A DNA stretch of 50,208 bases from Bacteroidaceae bacterium (GTDB lineage: Bacteria > Bacteroidota > Bacteroidia > Bacteroidales > Bacteroidaceae): assembly GCA_017540585.1 (NCBI GenBank), contig JAFYAT010000089.1, positions 1 through 50,208 of the forward strand, read 5' to 3'. Shown piece after piece: positions 10,201 through 49,990 of this stretch. The notes below the pieces were generated by a model that was not told the origin of the DNA, ran no database searches, and was given only the letters and a program-made list of their open reading frames with translations. How positions within the stretch are numbered: the stretch's first letter is position 1; each line of letters begins with the position of its first letter. Both the position numbers and the translations under genes were made by a program.

Positions 10201-11253
10201 ATGATGTCATCATCAGCACTCCACTTCCGTCCAGAGGACAACTACACCAACGGCAATACACGTGCTAAGCACCCAACAGAGTTCAAGACTTGTGCTCCTA
10301 CAATCGTATGTCTCGATGCAAAGACACGTGGACTTGGAAACAACAGTTGTGGTCCTGATGTAATGGAGAAGTACGAGCTTCACGCTGGAAACACATCATT
10401 CCGTTTCTTCATCATGCCATTGGCAAAGGGAACAAAACAGGAAGCACTCTATGAGAAGGCACGTATTGATATGCCTGTCTGCCAGCCAGTGGATTGTTCA
10501 CGCAACAAGTCAGGAAGGATAGAGTTGAAGACCAACACTCCAAAGGCCACAATATACTATAGTGTTGACGGAGGCGATTTCAAGAAATATACTACTACCT
10601 TTGCAAACAACAACTCATGCACAGTAAAGGCTTACTGTACATCTGATGGACTCTTGGACAGCCCAGTGATGACATACTCATTCGACATGTTCATCAACAA
10701 GAGCGGATGGAAGGTAGTCAGCGTTGACAGCTATCAAGGTGGCAATGATGCCAAATATGCCATCGACAACAATACAGGTACTTTCTGGCACACAGCATGG
10801 GGAGCCAACGAGCCAAAGCATCCTCACACTATCGTCATCGACATGGCACGTATATACAAGGTGACTGCAATCACATATACAGCCCGTCAGGATGGAAACT
10901 CCAATGGTATGATTAAGGAATACGAAGCATACCTCAGCACTGATGGCAAGACATGGGGCACAGTTGCCGTAACTGGAGAATTCAAGAACACCACAGCCGA
11001 GCAGATTGCAAAACTCTCATCAGCCAAGGCAGGACGTTACCTCAAGCTTGTTGCCAAGTCAGAGGTCAACAACAACGCATGGTCATCAGCTGCAGAGATA
11101 GGTATTCAGGCAAGTGCTGACATAACAGGAATCAACGGAGTTGCCACTGGCAACTCCCGTTCCACGTTGACCTACGATTTGACTGGCAACGTAGTAAGCA
11201 ATCCTTCCAACGGCATCTTCATCCAGAATGGTAAGAAATACTTGATAAAGTAA
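7285..11253 (+). CDS. Secreted GH2 beta-galactosidase-like, F5/8C domain
   Basis: 1322 aa. Signal peptide 1-20 (cleavage near SAFAQ). The order is: GH2 sugar-binding jelly roll (about 40-240), Ig-like domain (about 260-350), TIM barrel (about 355-640), linker, beta-galactosidase small-chain domain (about 770-1055), chitobiase-C-like Ig module (about 1070-1130), F5/8 type C (CBM32-like) module (about 1140-1270) and C-terminal tail. Catalytic residues are E482 (FGNESGG) and E547 (QCENSHSMG). The LacZ-like nucleophile context supports beta-galactosidase or a related activity. The tail YDLTGNVV...GIFIQNGKK resembles that of the GH10 enzyme. It lies 43 bp after the xylanase and ends the operon. 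Its last 68 codons and 3' flank are duplicated at 23476-23786. Confidence 0.92.
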   Translation: MNKIFALSIFTLGTFSAFAQTGKEWDNPLITSVNREAAHTIAIPMANASDVVSNDIGKSPYYISLDGKWKFLWTKNESQVNTGIFAKDYNDQSWTDIDVPSSWQIFGLHNNKNWDKPLYCNVAYPFSFNESNYSVMADRPGWFSYNNDMKNPVGSYRRTFTIPADWAGRDVYVRFNGVGHGYYLWINGQRIGYSEDSYLPSEFNITKYLVEGENTIALQVYRFTSGSFLECQDYWRLTGIQRHCFLWSAPKSQIRDYFFTTDLDNTYTDAKANVKVSLTGDVLTGGSVEARIEDNGMVVASATKAIGSAKELSLDMDAKNPRKWSAEEPNLYDLILTLKDKDGKAVDIRGGKVGFREVGIRKDGALLINGKRMVFHGVDRHDFSPINGRAISDEEIEQDIKTMKRLNINAVRTSHYPNDPIFYDLCDKYGLYVLAEANVECHAYQKCSSLEQFRNAMVERSENHVKWMRNHACIFMWSFGNESGGGNNFSYVQDAIKALDKTRLTHYEGGSQYADVTSTMYGSYEHIAWVGSSRLNEQNPKPHIQCENSHSMGNSMGNVREMFDLYEKYPSLTGEFIWDFKDQGLLTKNSAGKEYWAYGGDFGDNPNDNNFCINGLVMPDWSYTAKTYNTKKIYQPLEFKKAKLANGKLTFLLKNKQAFLPSTAYDVKYELVWEDGTVADKGDITTEVAADDSTTVTINTAAVTQNDNRELFVHFSASLKENTLWENAGYTVAEEKLTVKNAVKPLYDLAALKNIDGELTISETSASVTVSTDAFKAVFSKSSGTLNSYSYNGVTLVNKPMKLNLFRLPTDNDGSKTGAWDNMGIRNLTVSGKGTEVTKSDDGKTVSISMKSLYKGTAGNEFDVQLDFTVCINGDILTNAFIRPTATGAILPKIGFRLEMPSGMENLTWLGRGPWDSYVDRKEACLPGTYVSTVTDQLTNYIKPQENGTKQDVRWMSVTNAEGTGLLFSAPDMMSSSALHFRPEDNYTNGNTRAKHPTEFKTCAPTIVCLDAKTRGLGNNSCGPDVMEKYELHAGNTSFRFFIMPLAKGTKQEALYEKARIDMPVCQPVDCSRNKSGRIELKTNTPKATIYYSVDGGDFKKYTTTFANNNSCTVKAYCTSDGLLDSPVMTYSFDMFINKSGWKVVSVDSYQGGNDAKYAIDNNTGTFWHTAWGANEPKHPHTIVIDMARIYKVTAITYTARQDGNSNGMIKEYEAYLSTDGKTWGTVAVTGEFKNTTAEQIAKLSSAKAGRYLKLVAKSEVNNNAWSSAAEIGIQASADITGINGVATGNSRSTLTYDLTGNVVSNPSNGIFIQNGKKYLIK

Positions 11254-11360
11254 GGTCTCCGTAGTTTCAGAGTTAATGAAACCATACATATAAGTTAGTG
11301 GTTAACTATATCAGACTTACCCATTAAGTCTAATATAGTTAACCACTAACTCGTATATAG
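11050..11360. repeat. 311-bp direct repeat, left copy (intact gene end)
   Basis: This covers the last 68 codons of the GH2 gene, its stop codon and the following hairpin. It matches 23476-23786 without gaps and with six mismatches (positions 11067, 11151, 11205, 11247 and two in the hairpin). All four coding differences fall in third codon positions and are silent. The two copies flank about 12.1 kb. Confidence 0.95.
11293..11351. terminator. Long hairpin after the glycosidase operon
   Basis: A 27-bp stem with one mismatch and a 5-base loop: AGTTAGTGGTTAACTATAT... pairs with ...ATATAGTTAACCACTAACT. It starts 40 bases past the GH2 stop. No T-run follows, so it may be an RNA-stabilising or processing structure, or a relic, rather than a simple intrinsic terminator. 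The right repeat copy has the same hairpin at 23719-23777 with three mismatches. Confidence 0.65.
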
Positions 11361-11500
11361 CATTATTTCATCTGATTTTACACCGACATGACCTCCGACA
11401 GCACCTCCGACATTTTCGACTTTGCAATAGCCACGTTGCCTATATTTCCATGTCGTCCAGTCTTTGTCTATAAAATTAAATAACAGAGTCTTACGCCTTA

Positions 11501-13030: not shown

Positions 13031-13145
13031 AGGAATGGCAGTGTCCTACTCTTCCGCATAATGCAGTACCATTGGCGCATGTGGGGGGGACTTCTCTGTT
13101 CGGAATGGGAAGAGGTCTTTTACGCCACAGCTATTGCCACCATTC
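13031..13145 (-). rRNA. Orphan 5S rRNA gene (possibly degenerate)
   Basis: The minus strand carries the universal 5S core: CCTCTTCCCATTCCGAACAG, then AGAAG, GCGCCAATGGTACTGC and GAAGAGTAGG. The ends pair (GAATGG...GGCA with TGCCATTC), as in helix I. The usual GAAGTTAAGC segment is shortened to GAAGTCCCCC, so loop or helix II/III pairing may be altered. No 16S, 23S or tRNA gene lies within the window, so the gene is isolated in the island. It could be expressed, or be a relic of an rRNA-operon rearrangement. Confidence 0.8.
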
Positions 13146-13393: not shown

Positions 13394-14788
13394 TTACGAA
13401 CCGAATGTTTTAAAAAACCATAATATTGCAGGTATCAAGAATGAAATTAAAACACCAAAAAGAATAAGCTTCGTGGAATAATCATCCACCGAATTTCTTT
13501 CTGACGACGAGTTAGCATTTTTTCTTTCTGACAATGTATTCGCATTTTGAGCATTATTACGTGCGACATTAGTTTCTGTTTTTTTATACTTTGCTTTTAG
13601 TTTCTCCCATTCGTTAATGAGTTTCTCGCCACGTGCGTCTCCTTTGCGCTTCATGTCTTGGAACATTGCATAAGCGTAAGTAAGGTCTTGTTGAACTCCA
13701 TCTCCGCGGAGAAACATCATGCCTAATGCAAGCATTGTATCACAATCACCATTGTCAGCCAAGCTTCTTGTGTCTGTAACGGAGTTTCTATACTTAGCAT
13801 CTACTTTGTATGAAGACACATCAAAATTCTGATGACTACTTACACCAGAACCCATCACAACGGTTTCCTCGTTATTGTTTACTGTTTTGGTTGATGCAGA
13901 TACAGAATTACCATTTGCAACAAAAGACAAAGAATCGATAAATGCTTTAACTGTTTGTGTACGTTTCCTTACGTTTGGTAACATCGCATTAACGACGACA
14001 TCAACGATAGAGCCAGTAACACCATTTGCACGTAGTTTCATCTCTACCAACTCATCATCACTTACAATATCAGATGCAGGAGGTGGTGTCTCACCTGTGA
14101 GGAGCTTGAAGAGAGTTGCACCAAGGGCATACACATCGATTGTAGGACGGAACTCACCACTCTTGTTCTGGTTGCTCTGTTCAATAGGTGCATAGCCAGG
14201 AGTTCCAAGACCAATGGTTGTGGAAGTCTCTGGCTGACCATCATTACTATAATGCTTTGACAAGCCAAAGTCTATGAGGAATATATGTCCGTCACTACTA
14301 CGACGCATGATGTTTGACGGCTTCAAGTCAAGGTGAAGCATGTGCTTCTCATCATGCATATACATCAATGCACTTGCCACATCCTTGATGATGGATATAG
14401 CCTCATCATGTGACAACGAGTTATGCTTGAGATAATCATTAAGGTTTTCACCCTCAATGTAATCCATCACATAGTAGTACGTACCGTTCTCATCAAAAGA
14501 GTCGGTTACACGCACAATGTTAGGATGCTCCAATCGTGAGAGATTGACAGCCTCCTTCTTGAACTTCTGACCATAGTTGGCAGAGAGACTGCCGTCAGTC
14601 ATACCTGTGATACTGCCACCATCGTCACGAGAATTGAGTTCCTTCATAAAGAACTCTTTGATGGCAACTTTCTTATCTAACGTAGTATGGGTTGCAAGGT
14701 AGGTTATTCCAAAACTACCTTGACCGAGCATCCGCTCTATTCTATATTTACCACCTTGAAGTGTGGTATTTGTTCTTAATTGTTGCAT
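13394..14788 (-). CDS. Hanks-type Ser/Thr protein kinase, C-terminal membrane anchor
   Basis: 464 aa. Kinase domain at about 12-280: GQGSFG loop (22-27), catalytic Lys K44 (VAIKEF), HLDLKPSN catalytic loop with D154, DFG at 173-175, and GTPGYAPIEQ activation segment (195-204). The HRD motif reads HLD. A linker holds NNEETVVMG (T308 candidate phosphosite). Residues about 340-400 look like a Sel1-type helical repeat (ALGMMFLRGDGV), and the last 25 residues form one membrane helix, so the kinase faces the cytoplasm. The first 290 residues are nearly identical to the kinase at 15573-17807, indicating recent duplication or gene conversion. It is last in the operon, 2 bp after the DUF2971 gene. Confidence 0.92.
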   Translation of the reverse strand: MQQLRTNTTLQGGKYRIERMLGQGSFGITYLATHTTLDKKVAIKEFFMKELNSRDDGGSITGMTDGSLSANYGQKFKKEAVNLSRLEHPNIVRVTDSFDENGTYYYVMDYIEGENLNDYLKHNSLSHDEAISIIKDVASALMYMHDEKHMLHLDLKPSNIMRRSSDGHIFLIDFGLSKHYSNDGQPETSTTIGLGTPGYAPIEQSNQNKSGEFRPTIDVYALGATLFKLLTGETPPPASDIVSDDELVEMKLRANGVTGSIVDVVVNAMLPNVRKRTQTVKAFIDSLSFVANGNSVSASTKTVNNNEETVVMGSGVSSHQNFDVSSYKVDAKYRNSVTDTRSLADNGDCDTMLALGMMFLRGDGVQQDLTYAYAMFQDMKRKGDARGEKLINEWEKLKAKYKKTETNVARNNAQNANTLSERKNANSSSERNSVDDYSTKLILFGVLISFLIPAILWFFKTFGS

Positions 14789-14790
14789 TT

Positions 14791-15534
14791 TTATCTCGCT
14801 TGCTCTATCGTAATACTGTCGTAACCCATATATTTTAAATAGTCTGTATATTTTCTAACATCATCGTCATCAACATTCTTCCCAAATATAACCTTCGTTA
14901 ATATATCCTTTGGAAAAAGCAAATGGCGACTCCAATCTTTCTCCTGTACTACATAATCTTTAATTATTTCTGTTCCTTTTTTATACGATGCTTTAGATAA
15001 TTTCTGTTCTATCTGGACGTATCGAACCTCCTTTTGCTTAGAATAATTATCCATCATCATGCCCATCACTGCAAATATATGTTTGTCAGCTTCAGTATTT
15101 TCGCATAACAAGTCGTCATTTGCGATTTCCATAATTATGTGTTTTATTTTTTCTCTATCCTTATTTGAGCTAACATATTTACATGGAACTAAGCATGCAT
15201 AATTATCAGTTGAATTAGCTTCCTGACATAACTTCTCCTGATTAAACTCCAAGACGATTCCTTTTCCTTTGTTTCCAAAGTATTTCCACATATACTTTGA
15301 ATTCGTTTTTTCACAAAAGCTTATTATATATGGCCTGTGTGAAAGTATATCAGGGTCATACTTCCAATTTTTTTCTTCACAAATTTCACGAACAATAGAC
15401 TCAGCATACTTTTTTATCCAAGCATAATCTTTCTGATTAAACTTTTCATAAAAATTTGCGATTAAATCTATCGAATCTGTTTTAACGATTTTTTCGAGAT
15501 TTGACAACTTAGTGTAATGATATAAAGAAGTCAT
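14791..15534 (-). CDS. DUF2971 family protein
   Basis: 247 aa. The N-terminus YHYTKLSNLEKIV and the later FCEKTNSKYMWKYFGNKGKGIVLEF fit the DUF2971 family, whose biochemical function is unknown to me. Members occur scattered in accessory regions. There are no membrane segments or signal peptide, so the protein is cytoplasmic. It sits between two near-identical kinases, 2 bp from the next gene and 38 bp from the preceding one, so it is co-transcribed with them. Its AT-rich, Lys/Asn-rich composition differs from the kinases, suggesting it was inserted between duplicated copies. It could be a substrate or effector of the kinases; that is inference. Confidence 0.7.
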   Translation of the reverse strand: MTSLYHYTKLSNLEKIVKTDSIDLIANFYEKFNQKDYAWIKKYAESIVREICEEKNWKYDPDILSHRPYIISFCEKTNSKYMWKYFGNKGKGIVLEFNQEKLCQEANSTDNYACLVPCKYVSSNKDREKIKHIIMEIANDDLLCENTEADKHIFAVMGMMMDNYSKQKEVRYVQIEQKLSKASYKKGTEIIKDYVVQEKDWSRHLLFPKDILTKVIFGKNVDDDDVRKYTDYLKYMGYDSITIEQAR

Positions 15535-15572
15535 AATTACAAAAACGTTTTCTGTAATTGCCGTTTATTACA

Positions 15573-17807
15573 TTAAGGACAGACTGCACGGATACTTCGG
15601 CCATAGTAACGATTATCGATGTGACTGCAACTGCGATAGCCCGATTTGAAATTCAAGCTACATGCGCGGCTGTCAAGCTCAAATGTACACCCCTCGTAAT
15701 GCCCTCCTAACGAAGACGACCAGTAGAAGCCGCTCACACCCGCACGATAGAGCGAGCTACCGTCACAAAAACCAGCTGCAGGAAGGAAAAGGTGGAAATC
15801 AGAAAGTGAGTATTCGCTTGATGGGGTATTACCATTATATACGACATGTCCCTTATCGGATGAAGACTTAGCTGCATAAACAATATAGCCCGCAACGCCA
15901 GAACCGTCATAGCTTGATGTCCATACCCAGTAACATTTGTGTACGAGTTCATCCTGTTCTTCATGGGTTGGCATACGCCACGCTCCCCCCCAGTTCTGTT
16001 TGACAGCATCATCTTCTAGGTCAAGAGTCTTTTTTGCCCCTTCGTCTGTATATTTACAGAACGAACTATTGCTACCATTAACCGACCATTTATATGTGCT
16101 CCAATCATATCTTGATTTCGCTTTTATCTCCCCCCAAGCGTAATGCTTACCATAACCAGTTACGCTTGTAGCACCAATATTCATAGTTGCCCATTTTACA
16201 GAAAGACCAAGATCCACATAATCATGTCCATTTATTGTTCCAGAACATTTAGGTCCAATAGAAGATTTTGCTATTTTCACTCCCGATTTCTGTTGTGAAA
16301 CATTATTGTTATTATTACTTGTATTTTGCGTAGCAGCCGTAACAGTTTCAACTTCTACACTATCGCAATCGTCATAATTTAAAGATGACGAACTGGTACG
16401 CAAATTATAAATTGCAAAATATAAACAAGTAAAAACAATTACAACTACGATTAATATCCATGCTCTGCCTATTGTCCCAGAGTCTCCATTTGCTTTTTGA
16501 GGTGGTGTTGTATTAACCTTTGGACTATTGACACTTGAGGGAACTACATAATCTTTCTGATACTTTGCCTTTAATCGTTCCCAGTCACCTATGAGTTTAT
16601 CGCCACGAGCATCGCCCTTGCGCTTCATGTCTTGGAACAAGCAATAAGCACGAGTGAAGTCTTGTGAAAGACCATCGCCACGAAGATACATCATACCTAA
16701 GGCAAGCATTGCATCACAATCGCCATTGCCAGCAGAGTTTCTTGTGCTTGTAAGGTAGATTCTATACTTAGCGTCGATTGTGTATGAAGCCTCATCAAAA
16801 TTCTGATGGTTACTTACACCCGAACCCATCACAACGGTTTCCTCATTGTTCACCCTTGAAGATGGGGAAGTTGCGACCAATGTTTCCTCGTTATTGTTTA
16901 CTGTTTGGGTTGATGCAGACACAGAATTACCATTTGCCACCAAAGACAAAGAATCGACAAATGCCTTAACTGTTTGTGTACGTTTCCTTACGTTAGGTAA
17001 CATCGCATTAACGACAATATCAACGATAGAGCCAGTAATGCCATTTGCACGCAGTTTCATCTCGACCAACTCGTCGTCGCTAACAATATCTGATGCTGGA
17101 GGAGGTGTCTCACCAGTGAGAAGTTTGAAGAGCGTTGCACCAAGGGCATACACATCGATCGTAGGACGGAACTCACCACCCTTGTTCTGGTTGCTCTGCT
17201 CTATAGGTGCATAGCCAGGAGTTCCAAGACCTATGGTTGTGGAGGTCTCTGGCTGACCATCATTGCTATAATGTTTTGACAAGCCGAAGTCTATGAGGAA
17301 TATATGTCCGTCACTACTGCGTCGCATAATGTTTGATGGCTTCAAGTCAAGGTGAAGCATGTGCTTCTTATCATGCATATACATCAATGCACTTGCCACA
17401 TCCTTGATGATGGACACAGCATCTTCATGTGACAACGAGTTATGCTTGAGATAATCATTAAGGTTTTCACCCTCAATGTAATCCATCACATAGTAGTACG
17501 TACCGTTCTCATCAAAGGAATCGGTAACACGCACAATGTTAGGATGCTCCAATCGTGAAAGATTGACAGCCTCCTTCTTGAACTTCTGACCATAGTTGGC
17601 AGAGAGACTGCCGTCAGTCATACCTGTAATACTGCCATCTTCGTCACGTGAATTGAGTTCCTTCATAAAGAACTCCTTTATGGCAACCTTCTTATCCAAG
17701 GTTGTGTGTGTTGCGAGGTAAGTAATGCCGAAGCTACCTTGACCGAGTGTCTTCTCTATTTTGTATTTACCACCTTGAAGTGTGGTGTTTGTTTGTAAAT
17801 GTTGCAT
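15573..17807 (-). CDS. Transmembrane Ser/Thr kinase with exported FISUMP (lectin-like) sensor
   Basis: 744 aa. The N-terminal kinase domain carries the same GQGSFG, VAIKEF, HLDLKPSN, DFG and GTPGYAPIEQ motifs as the downstream paralogue. The linker holds two adjacent copies of VNNEETxV, one of them in a 16-residue insertion absent from the paralogue. A Sel1-like segment follows (ALGMMYLRGDGL), then one membrane helix at about 435-455 (WILIVVVIVFTCLYFAIY). The exported C-terminal domain (about 525-744) has YVDLGLSVKWATMNIGA, YAWGE, WRMPTHEE, GFYWSSS and a final RYYGRSIRAVCP. This is the Fibrobacter-succinogenes-major-paralogous (FISUMP) fold, related to C-type lectin/FGE-like domains. The architecture is that of a receptor kinase reading an envelope or extracellular signal; the ligand is unknown. 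Confidence 0.9.
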   Translation of the reverse strand: MQHLQTNTTLQGGKYKIEKTLGQGSFGITYLATHTTLDKKVAIKEFFMKELNSRDEDGSITGMTDGSLSANYGQKFKKEAVNLSRLEHPNIVRVTDSFDENGTYYYVMDYIEGENLNDYLKHNSLSHEDAVSIIKDVASALMYMHDKKHMLHLDLKPSNIMRRSSDGHIFLIDFGLSKHYSNDGQPETSTTIGLGTPGYAPIEQSNQNKGGEFRPTIDVYALGATLFKLLTGETPPPASDIVSDDELVEMKLRANGITGSIVDIVVNAMLPNVRKRTQTVKAFVDSLSLVANGNSVSASTQTVNNNEETLVATSPSSRVNNEETVVMGSGVSNHQNFDEASYTIDAKYRIYLTSTRNSAGNGDCDAMLALGMMYLRGDGLSQDFTRAYCLFQDMKRKGDARGDKLIGDWERLKAKYQKDYVVPSSVNSPKVNTTPPQKANGDSGTIGRAWILIVVVIVFTCLYFAIYNLRTSSSSLNYDDCDSVEVETVTAATQNTSNNNNNVSQQKSGVKIAKSSIGPKCSGTINGHDYVDLGLSVKWATMNIGATSVTGYGKHYAWGEIKAKSRYDWSTYKWSVNGSNSSFCKYTDEGAKKTLDLEDDAVKQNWGGAWRMPTHEEQDELVHKCYWVWTSSYDGSGVAGYIVYAAKSSSDKGHVVYNGNTPSSEYSLSDFHLFLPAAGFCDGSSLYRAGVSGFYWSSSLGGHYEGCTFELDSRACSLNFKSGYRSCSHIDNRYYGRSIRAVCP

Positions 17808-17843
17808 GTGTAGAAAAAAAGTTCTGTGTCTATTTTTAAAAAA

Positions 17844-18224
17844 CTACAAATTTACATCACCCAAAATTTGGTATAAATCCAATTTAATCTGATTTGATGC
17901 TTTATTCATCAAACTTTGCATTTCGTTAAGTGACGAAGTTTTTATTTCCATTCCCCCTCTTTCATATTCATAATTATAGTCTCGTACGTATTCTACTTCT
18001 TTTCCGAATGTATGATTCAAATGTTGTACATTCAATTCAAAAATATGATTTAATTTGTACAACTCATTTGCAACATCGACTAATTCCTCTGCCAATTTAT
18101 AGTAGTAATAGCCATTAGGTTCATGCCAATGCTTGTTATCATTATGCAGATATCGACCTTTACATTCTTGTAGTAATTCTCCATACAAATGGCGTATTTT
18201 TTCCTTCAATTGTTCTTCATTCAT
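17844..18224 (-). CDS. Uncharacterised small helical protein
   Basis: 126 aa, not recognised. It begins MNEEQLKEKIRHLYGELLQEC and is charged and mostly helical, with a tyrosine-rich middle (NGYYYYKLAEE) and no signal peptide or membrane segment. It lies 20 bp after the PP2C gene and 36 bp before the receptor kinase, so it belongs to the operon. A soluble adaptor or substrate of the kinase/phosphatase pair is possible but nothing in the sequence shows it. Confidence 0.65.
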   Translation of the reverse strand: MNEEQLKEKIRHLYGELLQECKGRYLHNDNKHWHEPNGYYYYKLAEELVDVANELYKLNHIFELNVQHLNHTFGKEVEYVRDYNYEYERGGMEIKTSSLNEMQSLMNKASNQIKLDLYQILGDVNL

Positions 18225-18244
18225 ATTGTTAACATGATTTGTTA

Positions 18245-19468
18245 CTAGTTTATACCTTTACCTTTTTGGAAGCTGTTTTTTAATTCTCTTGCAAATATGT
18301 CCACAGAAGAAGCATCTATTTTCTTTCCATTACAAGAATCAACTTTTATAGGCTCATCAGACTTGTCTTTCTGACTTTTAACAGTATCATTGCTTGATTC
18401 TGTTGAAGATTCTTCCTTTGTCTCTGCTGCTTCCTCATCCTTCTTCCTTTCAGATGTCGGTGGTACTGTGACTTTTGCTGAATCAATAGCTTTGATTTCT
18501 GTGGAGTCTGTATCACTCACCTTGTCTTCTGGAGACATGAAATGATTGTATGCAAAATATGCTCCTGCACAGATGGCAAGCACAAGCACTCCACATAAGA
18601 AACCATAAAGGAATGGCTTGTATTTGCAAAGACCTTGACATTTAGCAAAAACACTATCATCTTTTGGCTCAGGGTGAGAGACGTTTTTACATGGCTCTGT
18701 CCCAACTTCTTCCACCTTTATGAGATATGCTGTATGATTGTCCTTATTCTCAGAGGTAACGTCACACAGCATACTGACCTTTTGTGTGTCTGATGCATCT
18801 GGCTTTGTGATGATATACAAGAGATTGTCATCAGAGGTTTGTTCCAACATACCGTCACTACACATAAAGAAGTAGTCACCGACCCGCACATCAGTGATAT
18901 GAGCGATGTCAGCCTTAGCTCTATTTGGTTGGCAAGGTTGCATAGCGCGTGTGATAACATTCTTCTGTGGATGTTTTTTAGCCTCCTCTTCCGTAATCTC
19001 ACCTATCTTGATAAGGTCGTTGACGAGAGAGTGGTCACGTGTCTGGAACATAATACGGGCAGGCTCTCCATCCATGACAGGACGAATCTGATAAACACGA
19101 CTGTCACCTATGTGTGCAACGGTAACACCATCACGATGGAAACAAACAAATGTCATCGTTGTGCCCATCTTTTTCTCCTCGCCATTGTCCTTGGCGTCAA
19201 GTGCATCGTATGCATCATTAAGTGCCTGACGTAGGAGTTCATCGCTAAAAGGTTCTTCAGGTGTCCAATGCGAAAGGATTGTGCGACTCATAGTTTCGCA
19301 CACCGTACCAGATGCGACCTCACCTTTTTCGTGTCCGCCCATTCCGTCACACAGGATAAAAAGACGGTCATCGGGTGTTGATTTCTGATGACAAGGGAAA
19401 ATGGAATCTTCCTGATTCTGTCGTTGTCCCAGTTCATGAATACTATATGAATGTATCTTGTATTTCAT
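18245..19468 (-). CDS. PP2C-type protein phosphatase with membrane anchor
   Basis: 407 aa. PP2C motifs in order: RQNQEDS, CDGMGGHEKGE, GTTMTF, AHIGDSRVYQI, DHSLVN, VITRAM, CSDGMLE and DNHTAYL. The metal-binding Asp residues are all present, so an active Mn/Mg-dependent Ser/Thr phosphatase is expected. The domain covers about 1-245. A membrane helix follows at about 285-305 (LYGFLCGVLVLAICAGAYF), then an acidic Ser/Thr/Lys-rich tail outside. The catalytic domain therefore faces the cytoplasm, opposite the kinases. It starts 5 bp after the FHA gene. It is the natural antagonist of the two kinases downstream. Confidence 0.93.
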   Translation of the reverse strand: MKYKIHSYSIHELGQRQNQEDSIFPCHQKSTPDDRLFILCDGMGGHEKGEVASGTVCETMSRTILSHWTPEEPFSDELLRQALNDAYDALDAKDNGEEKKMGTTMTFVCFHRDGVTVAHIGDSRVYQIRPVMDGEPARIMFQTRDHSLVNDLIKIGEITEEEAKKHPQKNVITRAMQPCQPNRAKADIAHITDVRVGDYFFMCSDGMLEQTSDDNLLYIITKPDASDTQKVSMLCDVTSENKDNHTAYLIKVEEVGTEPCKNVSHPEPKDDSVFAKCQGLCKYKPFLYGFLCGVLVLAICAGAYFAYNHFMSPEDKVSDTDSTEIKAIDSAKVTVPPTSERKKDEEAAETKEESSTESSNDTVKSQKDKSDEPIKVDSCNGKKIDASSVDIFARELKNSFQKGKGIN

Positions 19469-19473
19469 GTTTT

Positions 19474-20025
19474 TTACATTTTGAAGATGACCTCGGTCAT
19501 TCCCAGTTTTATCCGGTCATTATTGTTTAATATGATTTTGTCCGACTCACCAACCAATACACCATTGACGTATGACGGGTTTTTATTCGCACCATTACGG
19601 AAGAAGTGAAGTGTCTTTCCTCCTACGTTCTTAACCTCAATAATTGCATGGTTTCTACTCATGTATCTGTCATCCACACAGATTTGTACAGAAGCGTCAG
19701 ACGTTGAAGCCTTTCTGCCAATGGTGTTCAAGCCAATACCCAACTGATATTTGCTTCCATAGCCATCAACAAGGACTCCGACATTGGTCTTTGGCACAGA
19801 GCCAACAATCTGCGTCTCTTCGCCACCTGACGATGGTGCAAAACCATATTGCGTTTCTTCACACGCAATATTAGTCTTTGGTGCATCTACAATCTTCTGA
19901 CATTCACCTACCCTGTGCTTCTCATGACACACGGGACAAGTAAACACCGCATTATCAATGTTTGGATTGTCTGCAAGGCGGAGGACTTTTCCGCACTTAG
20001 GACATCTCACCTTTATTTCACTCAT
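19474..20025 (-). CDS. Zinc-ribbon / FHA domain protein
   Basis: 183 aa, no membrane segment. The N-terminal zinc ribbon has CPKCGKVL and CPVCHEKH (two CxxC pairs, residues about 8-35). A linker holds ACEETQYG and GGEETQIVG, matching the EETxV-type motif of the kinases. The C-terminal FHA domain (about 95-183) has IGRK, MSRNHAII and NPSYVNG, the phosphothreonine-binding signatures. FHA proteins bind pThr peptides; here the ligand could be its own linker (an auto-inhibitory switch as in GarA/OdhI) or the same motif on neighbours. The start overlaps the end of the caspase-like gene by 8 bp, implying translational coupling. Confidence 0.9.
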   Translation of the reverse strand: MSEIKVRCPKCGKVLRLADNPNIDNAVFTCPVCHEKHRVGECQKIVDAPKTNIACEETQYGFAPSSGGEETQIVGSVPKTNVGVLVDGYGSKYQLGIGLNTIGRKASTSDASVQICVDDRYMSRNHAIIEVKNVGGKTLHFFRNGANKNPSYVNGVLVGESDKIILNNNDRIKLGMTEVIFKM

Positions 20026-20755
20026 CTTTCTTCCACTTCATTACAGGCATCTTGTTCGGAAACTTGCCCCACATGACAGGATGCTGTTTACCATTTGAAT
20101 CTTTATTAACCTTTGTGCTTACATAATTGAAAAGTTCCTTGGCTGTAACGACACTATCCCTATCCACATCAGCACCACCCCGAAGCCCATGTTGAAGAGC
20201 GTATGTAAACAAGCCATTTGTCTTCTTGGGATTCTCAATGGACAATTCATTGCTACGACATGACAGGAACAACATAATGTTATTGCCTAAGGATTTGTAC
20301 TTTGACGACACCTTGCTATTATCACGAAATGCTCCGGAAAAACATGCGTCTGCAAATATCATCTTGTTCTTACTCTTACTTGACGACATAATCTTACTTA
20401 TATCACCATAGCGCAAGAAACCGTCATAACACGCAAATCCACCTTTTATACCATGTCCACTAAAGTAAAATACGACAATGTCATTGGCAGATGCCCTTCC
20501 AAACATATCCTGCATAGCAGACTTGACATTGGCGACAGTTGCCTTTTCGTTCATCAATAGCTTGGTAGATGAATTTCTGTTTTCCTTGTACAGCCACTGC
20601 ATTGTTGCTGCATCGTTATATGCAAGTCGCAAGTCATTTTTAGTACCAGAGTAGTCTGATATTCCGACCGTAACAAGATATACCTTGGCTTGTACAAGGG
20701 AAACATAGAAAAAGACAGATAGCAGACATAATGTCTTCATTATCTTATGCGTCAT
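20018..20755 (-). CDS. Exported caspase-fold (C14) peptidase
   Basis: 245 aa. Caspase/metacaspase p20 core with catalytic His101 in FYFSGHG and Cys138 in FADACFSG, and GISDYSG near the start of the fold. It begins with a hydrophobic signal peptide (MKTLCLLSVFFYVSLVQA, cleavage near QAK), so the protease should be in the periplasm or outside. An internal ATG at 20740 (MKTL) is an equally good start and would remove the 11-bp overlap with the upstream gene. Residues 195-215 (GGADVDRDSVVTAKELF) resemble a Ca-binding loop. Prokaryotic caspases usually cut after Arg or Lys. Coupling to kinase, PP2C and FHA genes is unusual. Confidence 0.9.
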   Translation of the reverse strand: MTHKIMKTLCLLSVFFYVSLVQAKVYLVTVGISDYSGTKNDLRLAYNDAATMQWLYKENRNSSTKLLMNEKATVANVKSAMQDMFGRASANDIVVFYFSGHGIKGGFACYDGFLRYGDISKIMSSSKSKNKMIFADACFSGAFRDNSKVSSKYKSLGNNIMLFLSCRSNELSIENPKKTNGLFTYALQHGLRGGADVDRDSVVTAKELFNYVSTKVNKDSNGKQHPVMWGKFPNKMPVMKWKKDE

Positions 20756-21476
20756 ACACTTCTACATCATTATTGTAGTCATCCTGATTGTCGGCATTAT
20801 ACGCAAAAGTGTCCTGCTGCTCCTGCTCTGCCTGTTGCTGGGCGATGTATTCGTTCTCATACCTATCCATGCCCACACTCTGATCCGAAATATCAAGAAT
20901 CTCTCCATCTTCCAATGCGCCATTGTGATTCATGTCTATACCGATAACATCTGCATAGCCATCGCCATCTGCGTCAAGAACTGCAGCAACCTCATCACCA
21001 TTGGTAAGTATTGCCATCTCCTGATGAGTTCCATCCTCAGTGTATCTTTCATAAACACCAAGCACCTGTACCTCACCACCATCATTATTATCTGAATCTG
21101 ATGTATCCTGAGGCTCTGGTGTCTCTGCCACCGGGTCCGCACCTGCATGATTAGTGTAATCTGGCTCAGCCTCAACTTCAGCAGTCACTTCTTGTGTATC
21201 TTTGGTTGAAGCTGTTTCTGTCTCAGTAACGATATCGTTTTCCGGTTCAACTTCTGCAACGACCTCTTCTTCATCATTCATGGAATTGATAGCATGGGCA
21301 GCAGCAACAGAACCTGCTCCACCTACTGCACCTCCAAATACTCCTGCTGTAGCTATAACAAAGGCACGCTTGGCATTGCTGTCCTTTTCTTTTGTCTTTG
21401 ATGCCTCCTCAATCTTCTTATTAACACTTGCACCTTCGTTCTTAGGTTGCATTACTATTGTATCTTCATTGTTCAT
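20745..21476 (-). CDS. Acidic single-pass membrane protein with Ca-loop-like motif
   Basis: 243 aa from the ATG at 21476 (an ATG at 21503 is open, but the candidate -7 box at 21518-21525 leaves it almost no leader). The start MNNEDTIVMQPKN echoes NNEETVVMG of the two kinases. A Gly/Ala-rich membrane helix follows (AFVIATAGVFGGAVGGAGSVAAA, about 35-60). The remaining 180 residues are very acidic and should be outside. They contain DADGDGYADVIGIDMNHNGALEDGE, which has two EF-hand/dockerin-like DxDxDG loops. The short cytoplasmic tail with one Thr motif looks like a phospho-docking site. It is immediately upstream of the caspase gene. Function unknown. Confidence 0.75.
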   Translation of the reverse strand: MNNEDTIVMQPKNEGASVNKKIEEASKTKEKDSNAKRAFVIATAGVFGGAVGGAGSVAAAHAINSMNDEEEVVAEVEPENDIVTETETASTKDTQEVTAEVEAEPDYTNHAGADPVAETPEPQDTSDSDNNDGGEVQVLGVYERYTEDGTHQEMAILTNGDEVAAVLDADGDGYADVIGIDMNHNGALEDGEILDISDQSVGMDRYENEYIAQQQAEQEQQDTFAYNADNQDDYNNDVEVYDA

Positions 21477-21517
21477 AGTGTAAATGGTTTTAATGTTTGA
21501 CATTTGATTTTCTGATG

Positions 21518-21525
21518 CAAAAGTA
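21518..21525 (-). promoter_or_regulatory. Candidate -7 element for the kinase/caspase operon
   Basis: TACTTTTG read on the minus strand fits TAnnTTTG. It would start RNA about 35 bases before the ATG at 21476. No convincing -33 TTTG is seen 19-21 bases upstream, so the promoter may need an activator; the LytTR protein upstream is a candidate. Positions 21526-21719 hold no other feature. Confidence 0.45.
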
Positions 21526-21719
21526 CGTCATTATATCGTACTACGGAAAGATGCCAATCGATGTTGTACAAAACCCCTTTATTAATCCACGAAATGATAT
21601 AAGAGCTCCAGATCTGTATTATTCACACAGAGGTTCTACGTTCTTGTTGAATATAAGAGACAAGTAATCCAATACTTACATTTTTTTACTCTTGCATTAT
21701 GAAACATGAACAATGTATG

Positions 21720-22448
21720 CTAATGTGTATATTTACATCCACATGCAATACATTGTTTGTTGTACTCTATCTGTCTGTAAGGAATAGAGCCAAAAGGCTT
21801 CCCACATGACGGATTCGGGCATTTGTATTTATTTGCGAACTCCTCGTCAAGGTCATGAAGTTTCTTCTGGACGGTATCATTCGACATTCCTTGCAAGAAG
21901 AAATAGATTGCAATTGCCAAGGCTGCTACAATAATAATAACACGGAAGGTGGTAGCTATTCCAGGAATAAATCCTATACACATACCACACATGGACAATA
22001 TACCTTGCAGACGTGACATATTAGCATCTTTGACAGCCTTTTCCTGTATCTTCAACTTTCTACGGTCATACTCGTCCCACACACTTTTCAAATGTGTCAA
22101 ACTATATGTAGGAACTTGAGAAGATGACTGAGGACCTGTTGCTACGGGCGATTTCCCCAGAGTCATATCAAGAATCTGCTTTAGAGGGACATTGAACCTT
22201 TCACTACCAAGTTGGATGATACTCATAGGTGTTATGGCCTTTGAGAAGACCTGAATACCATCCACGTATGTAATATTCTGCTCTTTAAGGTTCTCAATTG
22301 ATATTTTCTCACCAAGAACAGTTATTCGACAATGCTGGCGACTTACGGTCGATGGTACAGAACCAGCTTGTCCAATATTAAATTCTTTTCCATTAGCGAT
22401 GCAATGGAGTCGCCTTGCTCCTTCTTCTCTACCTATGATTATTTCCAT
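21720..22448 (-). CDS. FHA membrane protein with C-terminal zinc ribbon
   Basis: 242 aa from the ATG at 22448 (MEIIIGREEG); an upstream start at 22484 would overlap the LytTR gene. The N-terminal FHA domain (about 1-95) has IGREEG, STVSRQHCRI and ITYVDG. Two membrane helices follow at about 150-195 (ILSMCGMCIGFIPGIATTF and VIIIVAALAIAIYFFL). The C-terminus is a zinc ribbon (CPNPSC...CIACGC). This mirrors the other FHA protein in the island, with domain order reversed and membrane-anchored. It could recruit phosphorylated partners to the membrane. It lies 4 bp after the LytTR gene. Confidence 0.85.
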   Translation of the reverse strand: MEIIIGREEGARRLHCIANGKEFNIGQAGSVPSTVSRQHCRITVLGEKISIENLKEQNITYVDGIQVFSKAITPMSIIQLGSERFNVPLKQILDMTLGKSPVATGPQSSSQVPTYSLTHLKSVWDEYDRRKLKIQEKAVKDANMSRLQGILSMCGMCIGFIPGIATTFRVIIIVAALAIAIYFFLQGMSNDTVQKKLHDLDEEFANKYKCPNPSCGKPFGSIPYRQIEYNKQCIACGCKYTH

Positions 22449-22452
22449 GTGA

Positions 22453-22839
22453 CTATTTGTTTTCTGCTTTGTTATTATTTGCATGTTCCACCATCAATGT
22501 CTTCAACTGTCGTAAAGCCTCCTTTGATATTCCAAGTTGAAATGCAAAATTCACTCCGTCAGTTACAGTAAGTATCTGACGAAGAATATGGATTTGGTAC
22601 ACGTAATTCAGATTGACGATGAATCGCTTGCCTATACGGGCAAACATGGTTGCACGTTCACGAAGATTTTCAGAAATATGACGTTGCATATCTGAAAGGT
22701 TCATACATACAGATGCTCTTACTTTATTTACAAGAACGATGTTGGTATAGTTACCATCACCCTCCATGTAAACAATCTTGGAGCAGTTGATGCGAAGTAG
22801 TTCATCACGTGTGTTTATATACAAGTAGTCCGTAGCCAT
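22453..22839 (-). CDS. Stand-alone LytTR DNA-binding regulator
   Basis: 128 aa from the ATG at 22839 (MATDYLYIN). The whole protein is a LytTR domain: INTRDELLRINCSKIVYMEGDGNYTNIVL, then FARIGKRFIVNLNYVYQI near the middle. It has no receiver or membrane region. LytTR proteins bind paired imperfect direct repeats upstream of target promoters. As first gene of the minus-strand cluster it is a likely local regulator of the FHA/caspase/kinase genes, either directly or through a change in its phosphorylation. No -7 box was found just upstream. Confidence 0.87.
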   Translation of the reverse strand: MATDYLYINTRDELLRINCSKIVYMEGDGNYTNIVLVNKVRASVCMNLSDMQRHISENLRERATMFARIGKRFIVNLNYVYQIHILRQILTVTDGVNFAFQLGISKEALRQLKTLMVEHANNNKAENK

Positions 22840-23475
22840 GACCAATAGATTTTTCTGTCGGCTACCATAACAGAAGTTTTTAAGATTGTAAATATTGTGT
22901 TCGTTTCACGTCGCATATAGGCAAAAAAAACGTGGAGCCCGACACTGTTGCCCGTTCCACGCTTCTTGGCTCTCGCATTGCCCTTCCTGTCGAAACGAGC
23001 AACGTCGAAAGCCCCACGATGAATGTATAATGACATACCAAAAACAGCACAAAGCGTAAGGATACAGTTATCCCTACACTCTTACCGGGGTATGTATATT
23101 ACATCCCAAGGGGCGTTCCCGTTGCTTTGTTCTTGACAGGAATTTGAATTTGCGAGATTCAGAAGCGTCAAAATCAAAGCGTTCAGTTACGCCTTTTTAT
23201 GTATATATGTATCTTTCCCGCCCGCCCCATCGTGGGACTTACGCAGAAAAGATACCACAAAGTTATGAAAGCAATCCCTTATAACCAAATATTTGAATAT
23301 AAAATGCAAAAAACAACAATAAAAAGCACGACCATCATTCCATTTGACATGGTTAAGAGCATCTTCGCGCAATTATTGGTGTCCGTAAAAACTTTTATCA
23401 ATTTCAGCAATCACTCATTTCTCAGACAGTCAGAGCTCTCCAGGAGTTAAGGCGAACTACAGAGTTCCTTTGTCA
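22840..23475. other. Gene-free right edge of the island, structured element
   Basis: Positions about 22925-23240 are more GC-rich than their surroundings. The minus strand reads coherently as HRGAFDVARFDRKGNARAKK and on for a short distance, with no family known to me. CCCACGAT (about 23014-23021) and ATCGTGGG (about 23229-23236) are complementary, and GGATA/TATCC forms a small hairpin near 23058. It could be a structured RNA, a repeated element or a decayed small gene. Positions 23240-23475 hold no other signal; the direct repeat begins at 23476. Confidence 0.4.
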
Positions 23476-23679
23476 GTTGCCAAGTCAGAGGTAAACAACA
23501 ACGCATGGTCATCAGCTGCAGAGATAGGTATTCAGGCAAGTGCTGACATAACAGGAATCAACGGAGTTGCCACTGGTAACTCCCGTTCCACGTTGACCTA
23601 CGATTTGACTGGCAACGTAGTAAGCAATCCATCCAACGGCATCTTCATCCAGAATGGTAAGAAATACTTGATTAAGTAA
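23476..23679 (+). pseudogene. Detached 3' end of a GH2 glycosidase gene
   Basis: 68 codons identical in protein sequence to the C-terminus of the GH2 enzyme at 7285-11253 (VAKSEVNNNAWSSAAEIG ... QNGKKYLIK). No catalytic or carbohydrate-binding domain precedes it. A TTG at 23470 would give a 69-residue peptide, but no promoter is evident and the fragment is best read as a gene remnant. The four nucleotide differences from the intact copy are all silent, so the two copies diverged while still under protein-level selection. Confidence 0.93.
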
Positions 23680-23786
23680 GGTCTCCGTAGTTTCAGAGTT
23701 AATGAAACCATACATATAAGTTAGTGGTTAACTATACCAGACTAACCCATTAAGTCTAATATAGTTAACCACTAACTCGTATATAG
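23476..23786. repeat. 311-bp direct repeat, right copy
   Basis: Same sequence as 11050-11360 with six mismatches and no gaps, including the downstream long hairpin (here 23719-23777). It marks the right boundary of the roughly 12-kb island. Confidence 0.95.
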
Positions 23787-23996: not shown

Positions 23997-24048
23997 CTAG
24001 AACCCGCCAAGCCTCTCAACGATGCTCAAATGTGCGGGTCGTTTTTTT
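23997..24048 (+). ncRNA. Short RNA/attenuator upstream of the AbiF gene
   Basis: From the predicted start near 23997 the transcript is about 50 bases long. ACCCGC (24002-24007) pairs with GCGGGT (24034-24039), followed by CG and seven Ts (24042-24048), a typical intrinsic terminator. The 26-base loop (CAAGCCTCTCAACG...) is large for a plain terminator. The unit ends 13 bases before the AbiF ATG. It could be a small RNA antitoxin/cofactor for the HEPN protein or a transcription attenuator. From memory, AbiF toxins have been linked to adjacent small non-coding RNAs, but I cannot verify that here. Confidence 0.65.
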
Positions 24049-24061
24049 ATATATACATATC

Positions 24062-24964
24062 ATGATAACGACAATTCCATTTCGCAAAGGCTACACATCT
24101 CCAAAAGACCTAACGACCCTGCTGATGTCAAGAGGTTTGATGATTCACGATACTTCAAAGGCAGAGCATTATTTGAAGCATATAGGCTATTATCGCCTTT
24201 CTGCTTATATGTTTCCATTTTTGAAAACTCCAAAACAACAGCACATATATAAACAAGGGGCATCATTTGACAAAGTAATGATGCTCTACCGCTTCGACAA
24301 AAAATTACGATTATTCTTGTTCAATGAGATTGAAAAGATAGAAGTCGCTGTTAGAAGTGCCATCGTGAATATTGGTAGCGAAATGACAGGTAATCCATTT
24401 TGGATGACCGATGCCTCAAATTTCACAGACAAATCAAAGTTTACCAAAACAATGCAGCTCATAGATACAGAACTGCGTTGCTCTCGTGAAGACTTTATTG
24501 TTCATTTCAAAAACAAATATTCTGATGCATATCCACCAGCATGGATTCTATCAGAAATATTGCCCTTTGGTGTCATTACCAACATATACAGCAACATAAA
24601 AAACAAAAAGATAAAGAAACGTATCTCACAGGTATTTGACTTACAAATCGCGCCATTCGAGTCTTGGCTCACAATAATCACACTTACAAGAAACGCATGT
24701 TGTCACCACGCACGCATTTGGAACAAACAAAATACGATACGTGCAACCATACCAAACAAGACAACACATCCATGGATTACTTTGCCAACAGATTTGCTAC
24801 GTATATACTTCAACATCTGTATTATCAAGTATTTCTTGAATGTAATTTCACCAGATAATGATATGTTGGCAAAGTTGCGTTGGCTATTTGTAGAGTTCCC
24901 TGAGATTGACCTCAAGGCATTAGGTTTCCCACAAGGCTGGGAAATGGAACCATTATGGAGATAA
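24062..24964 (+). CDS. AbiF/Abi_2 family HEPN protein
   Basis: 300 aa from the ATG at 24062 (a GTG at 24032 lies inside the terminator hairpin and is unlikely). The Abi_2 pattern is clear: KGYTSPKDLTTLLMSRGL, HYLKHIGYYRLSAYMFPF, YRFDKKLRLFLFNEIEKIEVAVRS and PAWILSEILPFGVI. The later TRNACCHHARIWN holds the HEPN ribonuclease motif RNxxxH. AbiD/AbiF proteins abort phage infection by RNA cleavage and resemble the HEPN ancestors of Cas13. No signal peptide. It stands alone downstream of the short RNA, next to the island edge and a toxin-antitoxin pair, in a defence-like neighbourhood. Confidence 0.9.
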   Translation: MITTIPFRKGYTSPKDLTTLLMSRGLMIHDTSKAEHYLKHIGYYRLSAYMFPFLKTPKQQHIYKQGASFDKVMMLYRFDKKLRLFLFNEIEKIEVAVRSAIVNIGSEMTGNPFWMTDASNFTDKSKFTKTMQLIDTELRCSREDFIVHFKNKYSDAYPPAWILSEILPFGVITNIYSNIKNKKIKKRISQVFDLQIAPFESWLTIITLTRNACCHHARIWNKQNTIRATIPNKTTHPWITLPTDLLRIYFNICIIKYFLNVISPDNDMLAKLRWLFVEFPEIDLKALGFPQGWEMEPLWR

Positions 24965-25185: not shown

Positions 25186-25461
25186 TTAGAATATGTCTGA
25201 GTGTGTTCCTGTGTTTAACATGAGTAATACCAGTTCATTGTCGTATTGCTTCCACACGAGTAACCAATCTGGAGCAATATGGCATTCCCACTCACCATCC
25301 CTATTACCACTCAGGATATGTGGGCGGTATGACGCAGGTAAACATCCGTCTTGTTCAAGCAGTTCCATTGCTTTACGCAGTTTTTCCATAGGCAAACCAC
25401 GTTTCATGCACCGCTTGAAATCTTTTTCAAAGCTTTTGGTTGTTAATATTTTGTATGCCAT
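25186..25461 (-). CDS. YafQ/RelE-type toxin
   Basis: 91 aa. MAYKILTTKSFEKDFKRCMKRG, then GEWECHIAPDWLLVWKQ and the C-terminal TGTHSDIF match the YafQ branch of the RelE superfamily. These are ribosome-dependent endoribonucleases that cut mRNA in the A-site. The conserved C-terminal His (THSDIF) is present. The length is normal for the family. It overlaps the antitoxin stop by 1 bp. Confidence 0.9.
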   Translation of the reverse strand: MAYKILTTKSFEKDFKRCMKRGLPMEKLRKAMELLEQDGCLPASYRPHILSGNRDGEWECHIAPDWLLVWKQYDNELVLLMLNTGTHSDIF

Positions 25462-25694
25462 TACACACCCATCTTTTTAAAGAAGTCATCAACGGAAGCG
25501 TATTCGTTCACACGTCCTTCCTTGATGTCAAGCAAGGACTGTTCGTATGACGAAAGAGCCTTGTTGCGTGATACAGCAACCTTTCCGACTCCTTTCAGCA
25601 TACTTATCGCTTTCTTAATGTCTTTAAGCATTGACATATCTTCTATGTCAACAATTATCTGCCCTTTGTTTGGCAATATAGCAACATTATCCAT
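25461..25694 (-). CDS. Antitoxin partner of the YafQ-type toxin
   Basis: 77 aa. Position and size identify it: immediately upstream of the toxin, 1-bp overlap, and a C-terminus (SSYEQSLLDIKEGRVNEYASVDDFFKKMG) of the kind that wraps RelE-type toxins. The N-terminal half, which would bind DNA and dimerise, is not a family I can name with confidence. Antitoxin-toxin pairs of this kind usually repress their own promoter. Confidence 0.8.
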   Translation of the reverse strand: MDNVAILPNKGQIIVDIEDMSMLKDIKKAISMLKGVGKVAVSRNKALSSYEQSLLDIKEGRVNEYASVDDFFKKMGV

Positions 25695-26424: not shown

Positions 26425-26865
26425 TCATCCATCTTCTCCGAGGAACGAACCGTTCTCCATTCTTTTCCTATCCAGAACATATCCACGTATGGCAAATTCA
26501 CGTAGCACACTTGTTGCCCACTGGCGGAACTGTGTGGCACGGATGCTGTTCACACGATAGCCAACACTGATGACGGCATCGAGATTGTAGAATTGTAGCG
26601 AACGGTTTACCTCTCTGGCACCTTCCTGACGAACTACCGAGATTTTCTCGGTAGTTGCCTTTTCTTCCAATTCTCCACTATCAAATATATTCTTCAGGTG
26701 AAGACCGATATTGTCCGTAGAGCAGTCAAACAGCATACCCATAGCTTTCTGTGTACACCAGACAGTCTTATCCTTGTAATAGACTTCAACGCCCTGTTCC
26801 TTTCCCTCTATCTGAAAGATTAGGAACTCAGCTGTGCTATTTCTTATTTCTCTTCGATTTACCAT
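26425..26865 (-). pseudogene. Truncated RhuM family protein
   Basis: 146 aa. TAEFLIFQIEGKEQGVEVYYKDKTVWCTQ, STDNIGLHLKNIFDSGEL, FYNLDAVISVGYRVNS and RQWATSVLREFAIRGYVLDRKRM are the RhuM (virulence-associated) signature. Intact members are around 330 aa; this frame stops just after GSFLGEDG, and the expected continuation is not seen in any frame. The 3' half has been lost, with the TGCCAC repeat element lying just beyond. RhuM genes are commonly found near restriction-modification and mobile loci. The N-terminal domain might still fold. Confidence 0.75.
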
Positions 26866-49985: not shown

Positions 49986-49990
49986 CAACG

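Follow-up and report, generated by a model that had tools for sequence, protein, structure and literature searches.

An exported caspase-fold protease encoded together with Ser/Thr kinases, FHA proteins and a LytTR regulator in Bacteroidales

The TerY-P triad combines a vWA protein with a kinase and a phosphatase, and PpkA/PppA/Fha is a phosphothreonine (pThr) module that accompanies structural genes of the type VI secretion system (T6SS). Neither covers the ten genes treated here, which lie collinearly on the minus strand, at positions 13394-22839, of a 50,208-nt stretch of DNA from a Bacteroidaceae bacterium (contig JAFYAT010000089.1; hereafter the window). From 5' to 3' they encode a LytTR regulator, an FHA protein with two transmembrane (TM) segments (FHATM), an acidic membrane protein (Acid), an exported caspase-fold protease, a zinc-ribbon FHA protein (ZnFHA), a PP2C phosphatase, an unknown protein, the kinase KinA, a DUF2971 protein and the kinase KinB. 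No vWA match was obtained for the ten proteins (Pfam) or for the 20 relatives' proteins scanned, and no T6SS structural genes occurred among the ten proteins or the ten neighbours scanned. The initial annotation had rightly placed the locus in neither system. In animals, caspases are the proteases behind cell death; to our knowledge, the role and control of exported bacterial caspases are largely open.

Described systems share parts of this arrangement; the comparisons concern the sections of the cited papers drawn on here. In the LytTR regulatory systems (LRS) HdrRM and BrsRM of Streptococcus mutans, a LytTR regulator without receiver domain is encoded beside a TM partner, and tandem direct repeats lie near the -35 box, just upstream of promoters (PMC6193735). 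The published repeats are mostly 12 bp apart; with repeats of 9 nt, the period is therefore the same 21 bp as that of the repeat found here, which lies upstream of a TAnnTTTG box. The LRS of S. mutans control a suicide-like death pathway, and other LRS-like operons in Bacteroides are mentioned (PMC6193735). The present locus differs by its coupling to kinases, PP2C and a caspase. Because its repeat precedes Acid and not LytTR, the system resembles an LRS without sharing every LRS feature. PknG is reported to recruit GarA by means of autophosphorylated threonines that dock the FHA domain (PMC8546545). As in GarA/OdhI, an acidic Thr motif, here predicted to be phosphorylated, is located N-terminally of a canonical FHA domain in ZnFHA, and the kinases carry Thr sites in a flexible region that may dock an FHA protein. 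Differences are the zinc ribbon in front, EETQ/EETV instead of ETTS, the TM kinases and the position beside a caspase. In the kinase-kinase-phosphatase module (KKP), a single operon likewise encodes a pair of Ser/Thr kinases and a PP2C, but the KKP kinases are fused to FHA and cold-shock domains (PMC11341870). KinA and KinB gave no such match, and the passages on KKP contain no caspase. A caspase-fold protease in a multi-gene operon is shared with known bacterial caspase operons and with NTP-dependent conflict systems that have caspase-like effectors; the conflict systems described in the passages considered are built on vWA, MoxR, iSTAND or GTPase parts (PMC3501461, PMC7159879), none of which matched in the ten window proteins. 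In a 2012 survey of prokaryotic caspases, the section on operons (section 13) names other operons and no kinase-FHA-PP2C caspase operon (PMC3501461). Searches of the open-access literature listed no paper recognisable as a description of this gene set, with subscription papers and preprints outside the search.

All ten ORFs were verified. Pfam matches above the gathering score were obtained for Pkinase (twice), PP2C_2, FHA (twice), Peptidase_C14, LytTR and DUF2971. The LytTR gene starts at the ATG at 22839; the ORF-calling program instead uses a TTG at 22845. Both the GHG and the DACFSG motif of the protease are present, as annotated. His101 and Cys138 are invariant in 32/32 aligned caspases, and with a C14 domain bearing this His-Cys dyad the window protease falls by sequence into Peptidase C14. 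Signal-peptide-like starts were found in 26 of the 27 sequences parsed by script (L036 was negative), and the remaining five of the 32 were assessed by eye. The predicted structure has a pLDDT of 87.8; its best folds in the Protein Data Bank (PDB) are a plant metacaspase 9, GSU0716 and MALT1.

With the caspase protein alone as query, 31 loci (45-67% identical) were retrieved from genome contigs, in records named Prevotellaceae, Bacteroides, Alistipes, Butyricimonas, Muribaculaceae, Lentimicrobiaceae and others. The partners were ZnFHA in 29 loci, PP2C in 28 (partial in L050), a kinase in 25 (weak in L037 and L050), FHATM in 25 and LytTR in 22. The initial annotation had made its reading depend on caspase and kinase genes occurring together elsewhere, which the 25/31 loci show. 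Kinases were counted by comparing locus ORFs with the window proteins and not from cluster F04, because F04 mixes kinases with ectodomain-only proteins. FHATM was missing from six loci; five of them (L032, L037, L041, L050, L051) reach the contig end upstream, and L030 does not. Versions of the system are present in Bacteroides caecigallinarum strain ET21 and in Leyella stercorea DSM 18206, where the contig stops after PP2C. Clustering revealed an exported BspA-type leucine-rich-repeat (LRR) protein in 14/31 loci and an exported protein of about 129 aa (CC08) in 13/31; their genes frequently lie after those for Acid and before the caspase gene.

A caspase profile matched 19 of 393 Bacteroidales genomes at E <=1e-25. 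Eleven of these had short open frames (236-315 aa), with ZnFHA within 8 kb in ten and found by locus inspection in the eleventh. FHATM lay within 10 kb in 9/11; G175 has a weak FHATM, and in G052 it is located on another contig. The remaining eight genomes matched in long frames only (441-1049 aa), and none had ZnFHA on that contig. Since ZnFHA occurs in just 65/393 genomes overall, its proximity to the caspase is not due to abundance. Caspase distances correlate with the distances measured for each core partner (r 0.54-0.78, 0/2000 permutations each). Joint inheritance of the genes would produce this pattern, to which common descent of the species contributes too. A conserved caspase-kinase-FHA system is very probable on these data.

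Table 1. Features of the caspase-kinase-FHA locus in the window
Feature	Position	Strand	Evidence
LytTR DNA-binding protein without receiver domain	22453..22839	-	PF04397 E 2.7e-8
FHATM: divergent FHA, two TM, C-terminal zinc ribbon	21720..22484	-	PF00498 E 1.4e-6
Candidate LytTR operator: direct repeats in tandem with a 21-bp period	21564..21595	-	alignment and matrix scan
-7 box, Bacteroidetes-type, TACTTTTG, ahead of Acid	21518..21525	-	TAnnTTTG form
Acid: NEDT motif in a cytosolic N-tail, Gly-rich TM 48-66, EF-hand-like DxDxDGxxD in an acidic exterior	20745..21503	-	sequence
Acid N-tail motif NEDTI, Thr15 of long reading	21456..21470	-	motif scan
Exported caspase-fold protease, His101 and Cys138	20018..20755	-	PF00656 E 2.2e-24; signal-peptide-like N-terminus
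ZnFHA: zinc ribbon, linker EETQ at Thr58 and Thr71, canonical FHA	19474..20025	-	PF00498 E 2.7e-11
PP2C phosphatase and TM	18245..19468	-	PF13672 E 1.3e-13
KinA: Ser/Thr kinase, linker motifs Thr309 and Thr324, TM 449-467, Lcl_C/FISUMP-like ectodomain	15573..17807	-	PF00069 E 5.4e-42
KinB: Ser/Thr kinase, linker motif Thr309, C-terminal TM, without ectodomain	13394..14788	-	PF00069 E 2.5e-42
Unknown 126-aa protein	17844..18224	-	relatives in L021 (weak) and L022 only
DUF2971 protein	14791..15534	-	PF11185 22.1 bits (cut-off 22); weak PADLOC PDC-S31 match

The kinases, ZnFHA and Acid have an acidic Thr motif in common, [DE][DE]T[VILQ], which was derived from the window proteins and then tested on relatives against shuffled sequences. 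In the window, the kinase linkers have it as NNEETVVMG and NNEETLVAT, the Acid N-tail as NNEDTIVMQ, and ZnFHA as CEETQYG and GEETQIVG. Whole proteins contained 20 motifs vs 1.4 in shuffles for ZnFHA, 27 vs 10.3 for Acid and 18 vs 6.6 for the kinase cluster. PP2C gave 3 vs 4.1, and for 210 further genes from these loci the count was 11 vs 11.8. Counts of zero in the caspase, FHATM, LytTR, LRR and CC08 carry little weight, with 0.3-0.8 expected from shuffles. The enrichment is located in the linkers and tails: ZnFHA linkers held 16 motifs vs 0.48 (13/30 sequences) and Acid N-tails 15 vs 0.77 (14/25). Acid cluster F01 is partly low-complexity, and 25 caspase-adjacent members were used for the tails. 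A longer tail form, E.T[VIQT][YF]D, occurred 20 times in 10/23 sequences vs 0.01, a descriptive count with the pattern taken from the same tails. Kinase linkers gave 14 vs 0.97, and 9 vs 0.90 in 20 further loci. Kinase domains contained none, and ectodomains were at chance level (2 vs 1.50 and 1 vs 1.51). The kinase/linker boundary was set at +126 after HxDxKxxN, matching the Pfam domain end at 287; with an earlier setting of +145, most linker motifs fell within the 'domain' (8 vs 3.12; linker 5 vs 0.53). Control kinases outside such systems were drawn from 30 loci, four of which were excluded beforehand; 17 of the remaining 26 gave 18 kinases, 12 with a TM. One of these 12 linkers had the motif (0.41 expected), and it (L152) comes from G063, a genome with FHATM and ZnFHA. 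The near-duplicate loci L027, L029, L033 and L044 were kept in the motif counts and removed from the distance correlation and the operator scan. Among eight distant-caspase loci (L090-L095, L098, L099), five (L090, L091, L092, L094, L098) encode an acidic protein that begins with, or soon after its start shows, the motif type, for example MSDETIFD, MNDETIFD, MDEETIVD and EDKTLIEN; in L093 and L099 the acidic protein lacks it, and no acidic protein was found in L095.

KinA and KinB have HLDLKPSN and DFG, and the PP2C metal-site motifs DGMGGH, DG and DN are invariant across 28 sequences. In ZnFHA, C8/C11/C30/C33, G103 R104, S123 R124 and N149 are each conserved in 32/32; these FHA residue types are the canonical pThr-binding ones. 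Some FHA domains favour acidic residues at pT+3. The nearest solved relative of ZnFHA is the TB39.8 FHA domain, which we take to be M. tuberculosis FhaA, followed lower down by a GGDEF protein, presumably Bdellovibrio DgcB. FHATM has TM segments at residues 162-180 and 182-200, with its four zinc-ribbon Cys conserved in 26/26 and FHA residues S48 and H51 in 25/26. KinA and KinB are identical in 284 of their first 300 residues and are separated by the DUF2971 gene; they arose by a recent duplication. They are the sole Pkinase matches at E <=1e-15 in the host genome, an assembly 86% complete.

The sensor part was initially named as a FISUMP ectodomain, a name with weak support. Pfam and NCBIfam gave no FISUMP match for the KinA ectodomain at the thresholds used; the window sequence matched only PF07603 Lcl_C, below cut-off (E 0.0044), and one relative matched Lcl_C above it (E 1.8e-13). 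Compared with the PDB, the ectodomain model (pLDDT 80) found no fold at E <=0.001, and a sequence search there gave no match either. Kinase C-terminal parts vary by locus. In nine kinases or relatives, surveyed together with L031 and L097 proteins, matches above cut-off were Lcl_C (L032), FGE-sulfatase (L049), Sel1/TPR (L025, two) and DUF805 (L028). Lcl_C-like domains also occur as stand-alone exported proteins in L031, below cut-off.

Intergenic distances along the gene order are -32, 216, -11, -8, 5, 20, 36, 38 and 2 nt. The locus had been described as one operon of mostly closely spaced genes; since the 216-nt gap between FHATM and Acid contains a separate -7 box as well as a conserved operator of tandem repeats, there are probably two transcription units instead of one. 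In the window and five relatives, this gap aligns at TTTCGTGnA...TTTnnTACA, followed by TAnnTTTG. The latter was found in 6/6 upstream regions inspected, and the complete pair of TTTG and TAnnTTTG in 3/6, the window's region not among them. An operator matrix was built from 11 seed sites, of which one (L024) was off-register by one base and nine lie in the scanned set. Across 27 non-duplicate loci (399,684 bases) it found 24 sites scoring >=14 vs 1.2 in shuffled sequence (maximum 3; 200-nt blocks, 20 rounds). Twenty-one of these, from 19/27 loci, lie upstream of the called Acid start or, in L034 and L041, just within it. Two others lie within kinase genes and one ahead of a kinase gene. Non-seeds accounted for 15/24 sites, 13 of them at the Acid start. 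The half-sites match at offset 21 (67%), compared with 14-38% at other offsets from 8 to 23.

Written as a 31-mer pattern, this site is the only exact match in the host genome. In three genomes of the genus with the system, the operator site is the sole exact match, and six relatives without a caspase match have none. Allowing two mismatches gave 15 matches in the 11 genomes vs 11 for a reversed control pattern; one site precedes Acid in G413, and none lies near the system in G389. The canonical LytTR consensus, taken here as [TA][AC][CA]GTTN[AG][TG], had no match in 11 upstream regions. The regions upstream of LytTR in the 27 loci contained no site >=14, the best being 13.7 in L021. The repeat fits the co-encoded LytTR protein as a candidate binding site. 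A strongly folded RNA-like element (z -4.62) is located just upstream of LytTR, at window 22900-23040 (-), without an Rfam match at E <=1. It has four copies in the host genome and others in relatives; elsewhere these precede unrelated genes, and in G031 again LytTR.

For Acid, the second ATG at about 21476 is the more likely start, because relatives begin with MNNEDT/MNNEET. Its TM segment clears only a relaxed hydropathy threshold (1.59). Acid relatives (L096:14705-15646, L090:3252-4301 and others) have a common unnamed domain, MSFxxAFxxARxExGxGGxFxWxGxxYxT, which gave no Pfam match in the sole member scanned (L025:9013-9963).

The system had been drawn too narrowly, as LytTR/FHATM/ZnFHA/PP2C/kinase blocks occur without the caspase and sensors vary. 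A caspase was nearby in five of the 13 best FHATM matches (E <=1.3e-23). Compact LytTR-FHATM-ZnFHA-PP2C-kinase blocks without caspase are found in G325, G141, G241 and G388 (blocks L083, L084, L085 and L087); L083, the only block scanned, continues with Kelch and hexapeptide proteins. In G326, G219 and G316, ZnFHA is on another contig, and in G063 kinases, PP2C and ZnFHA lie beside FHATM. The module is thus wider than the caspase, which is one of its outputs and not an obligatory part, because it is missing beside 8/13 best FHATM matches.

The arrangement points to an envelope-sensing pThr signalling system with the exported caspase as its protease output; for the mechanism in full, the chances appear about even. 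Sensor kinases, mostly with one TM and varied outer domains, would detect an envelope cue and phosphorylate the acidic Thr motif at three places: the juxtamembrane linkers of the kinases themselves, the linker of ZnFHA and the N-tail of Acid in the cytosol. ZnFHA, which as in GarA/OdhI has a putative phospho-Thr shortly before its FHA domain, may dock on these pThr marks and may lock onto itself, and the membrane-bound PP2C would reset the marks. FHATM, whose gene overlaps that of LytTR, may keep LytTR at the membrane as in LRS. Freed LytTR would bind the 21-bp-period repeat and switch on the Acid-caspase-ZnFHA-PP2C-kinase unit. Acid is predicted to span the membrane; its pThr tag would face the inside, and its acidic EF-hand-like domain would lie outside, next to the exported caspase. 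Acid may tether or activate the caspase or be cleaved by it, by which the cytosolic phospho-state would reach envelope proteolysis. The chain initially proposed (outside sensing, pThr/FHA relay, exported protease, local transcription) finds support in the sequences, to which the common Thr motif and the candidate operator are added; the FISUMP identity of the sensor does not find it. A more specific version is tentative and rather doubtful. According to it, a receptor-to-caspase pathway crosses the membrane: kinases would write a pThr code on Acid as adaptor, docking FHA readers inside and gating the exported caspase outside, an LRS-like LytTR/FHA-membrane pair would feed the Acid promoter, and sensor ectodomains would be swapped between loci. 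The output may be envelope proteolysis, regulated death or defence, or surface assembly.

Several findings weigh against the signalling reading. Distant caspases (~30-35% identity, L007-L020, 14 loci) have no partners in their ~1.5-kb flanks. The eight best-FHATM genomes lacking a caspase nearby have no caspase match at E <=1e-25 anywhere. The strict linker motif is present in just 12/39 and, in the further loci, 6/26 system kinases. ZnFHA linkers of a second locus set gave 3 vs 0.26, with the motif in 2/16 only. Kinship between sequences inflates the shuffle tests. FHATM might not bind pThr, because the canonical GR arginine of FHA domains is not conserved. With the operator ahead of Acid, autoregulation of the LRS type is not seen. 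Finally, the window system may be a reduced version, because neither LRR nor CC08 was seen there and its Acid is without the MSFxxAF domain.

Phage defence or regulated death is an unlikely alternative, in which the system would sense envelope damage caused by infection, and the cell would be killed or arrested by the caspase and the DUF2971 protein. The distribution is patchy, with caspase matches of >=40% identity in 5/37 genomes of the genus, the host genome included. An AbiF RNA and an Abi_2 gene lie next door, and streptococcal LRS govern a suicide-like pathway (PMC6193735). The DUF2971 protein weakly matches the candidate PDC-S31, and the kinases match PADLOC defence-kinase models, but such matches are expected for any Hanks kinase. 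Single flank proteins match type III restriction, AbiGi and AbiEi models. However, in the scan of 112/158 flank proteins (25 of 75 models listed, each matching 1-4 members) the top model matched four, a count which, without a control set, is no test of enrichment. The export signal of the caspase and the predicted outward-facing sensors also speak against a defence role.

Envelope assembly is improbable to a similar degree. Acid, with LRR/CC08, would be the surface product, the caspase its processing protease, and the kinase/FHA/LytTR part would only set the amount. It accords with the operator ahead of Acid, the overlap of the Acid and caspase genes, and the exported LRR and CC08 often encoded between them, but leaves unexplained the pThr-type motif in the cytosolic part of Acid and the matching motifs of the kinases and ZnFHA. 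That the caspase is a passenger of a general LytTR-FHATM-ZnFHA-PP2C-kinase module, without functional link to it, is suggested by the caspase-free blocks and is highly improbable in view of ZnFHA near the caspase in 29/31 loci, the correlated divergence, the invariant dyad and the overlapping genes.

For the preferred reading, a pThr signalling system with protease output, the locus supplies candidates from gut Bacteroidales for the phospho-sites, the reader and the eraser, and for an operator and an adaptor, which makes control of a caspase by Ser/Thr kinases directly testable. If correct, membrane partners with an FHA domain would join the LRS concept, and a caspase would be shown to be controlled from across a membrane.

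Among the remaining features, the 126-aa protein gave no match in Pfam or PADLOC. Near-identical direct repeats of 311 bp, at window 11050-11360 and 23476-23786, represent the 3' end of a beta-galactosidase gene. They bracket a 12.4-kb block containing the entire operon, which may be an insertion, a duplication or an assembly effect. The GC content is 40.1% in the operon and 43.9% outside. A palindromic hairpin lies at the end of the beta-galactosidase repeats (window 11276-11371 and 23702-23784), and the host genome has it on several further contigs as well. Within the block lies a 5S rRNA match (13033-13144, -), the window being without other rRNA or tRNA. The abiF RNA and the Abi_2 gene (24003-24964) directly adjoin the block. 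A YafQ-type toxin with a small ORF upstream and a short RhuM-type ORF are located at 25186-25694 and 26425-26865, respectively, and a small RNA of the FopS family at 49990-50059.

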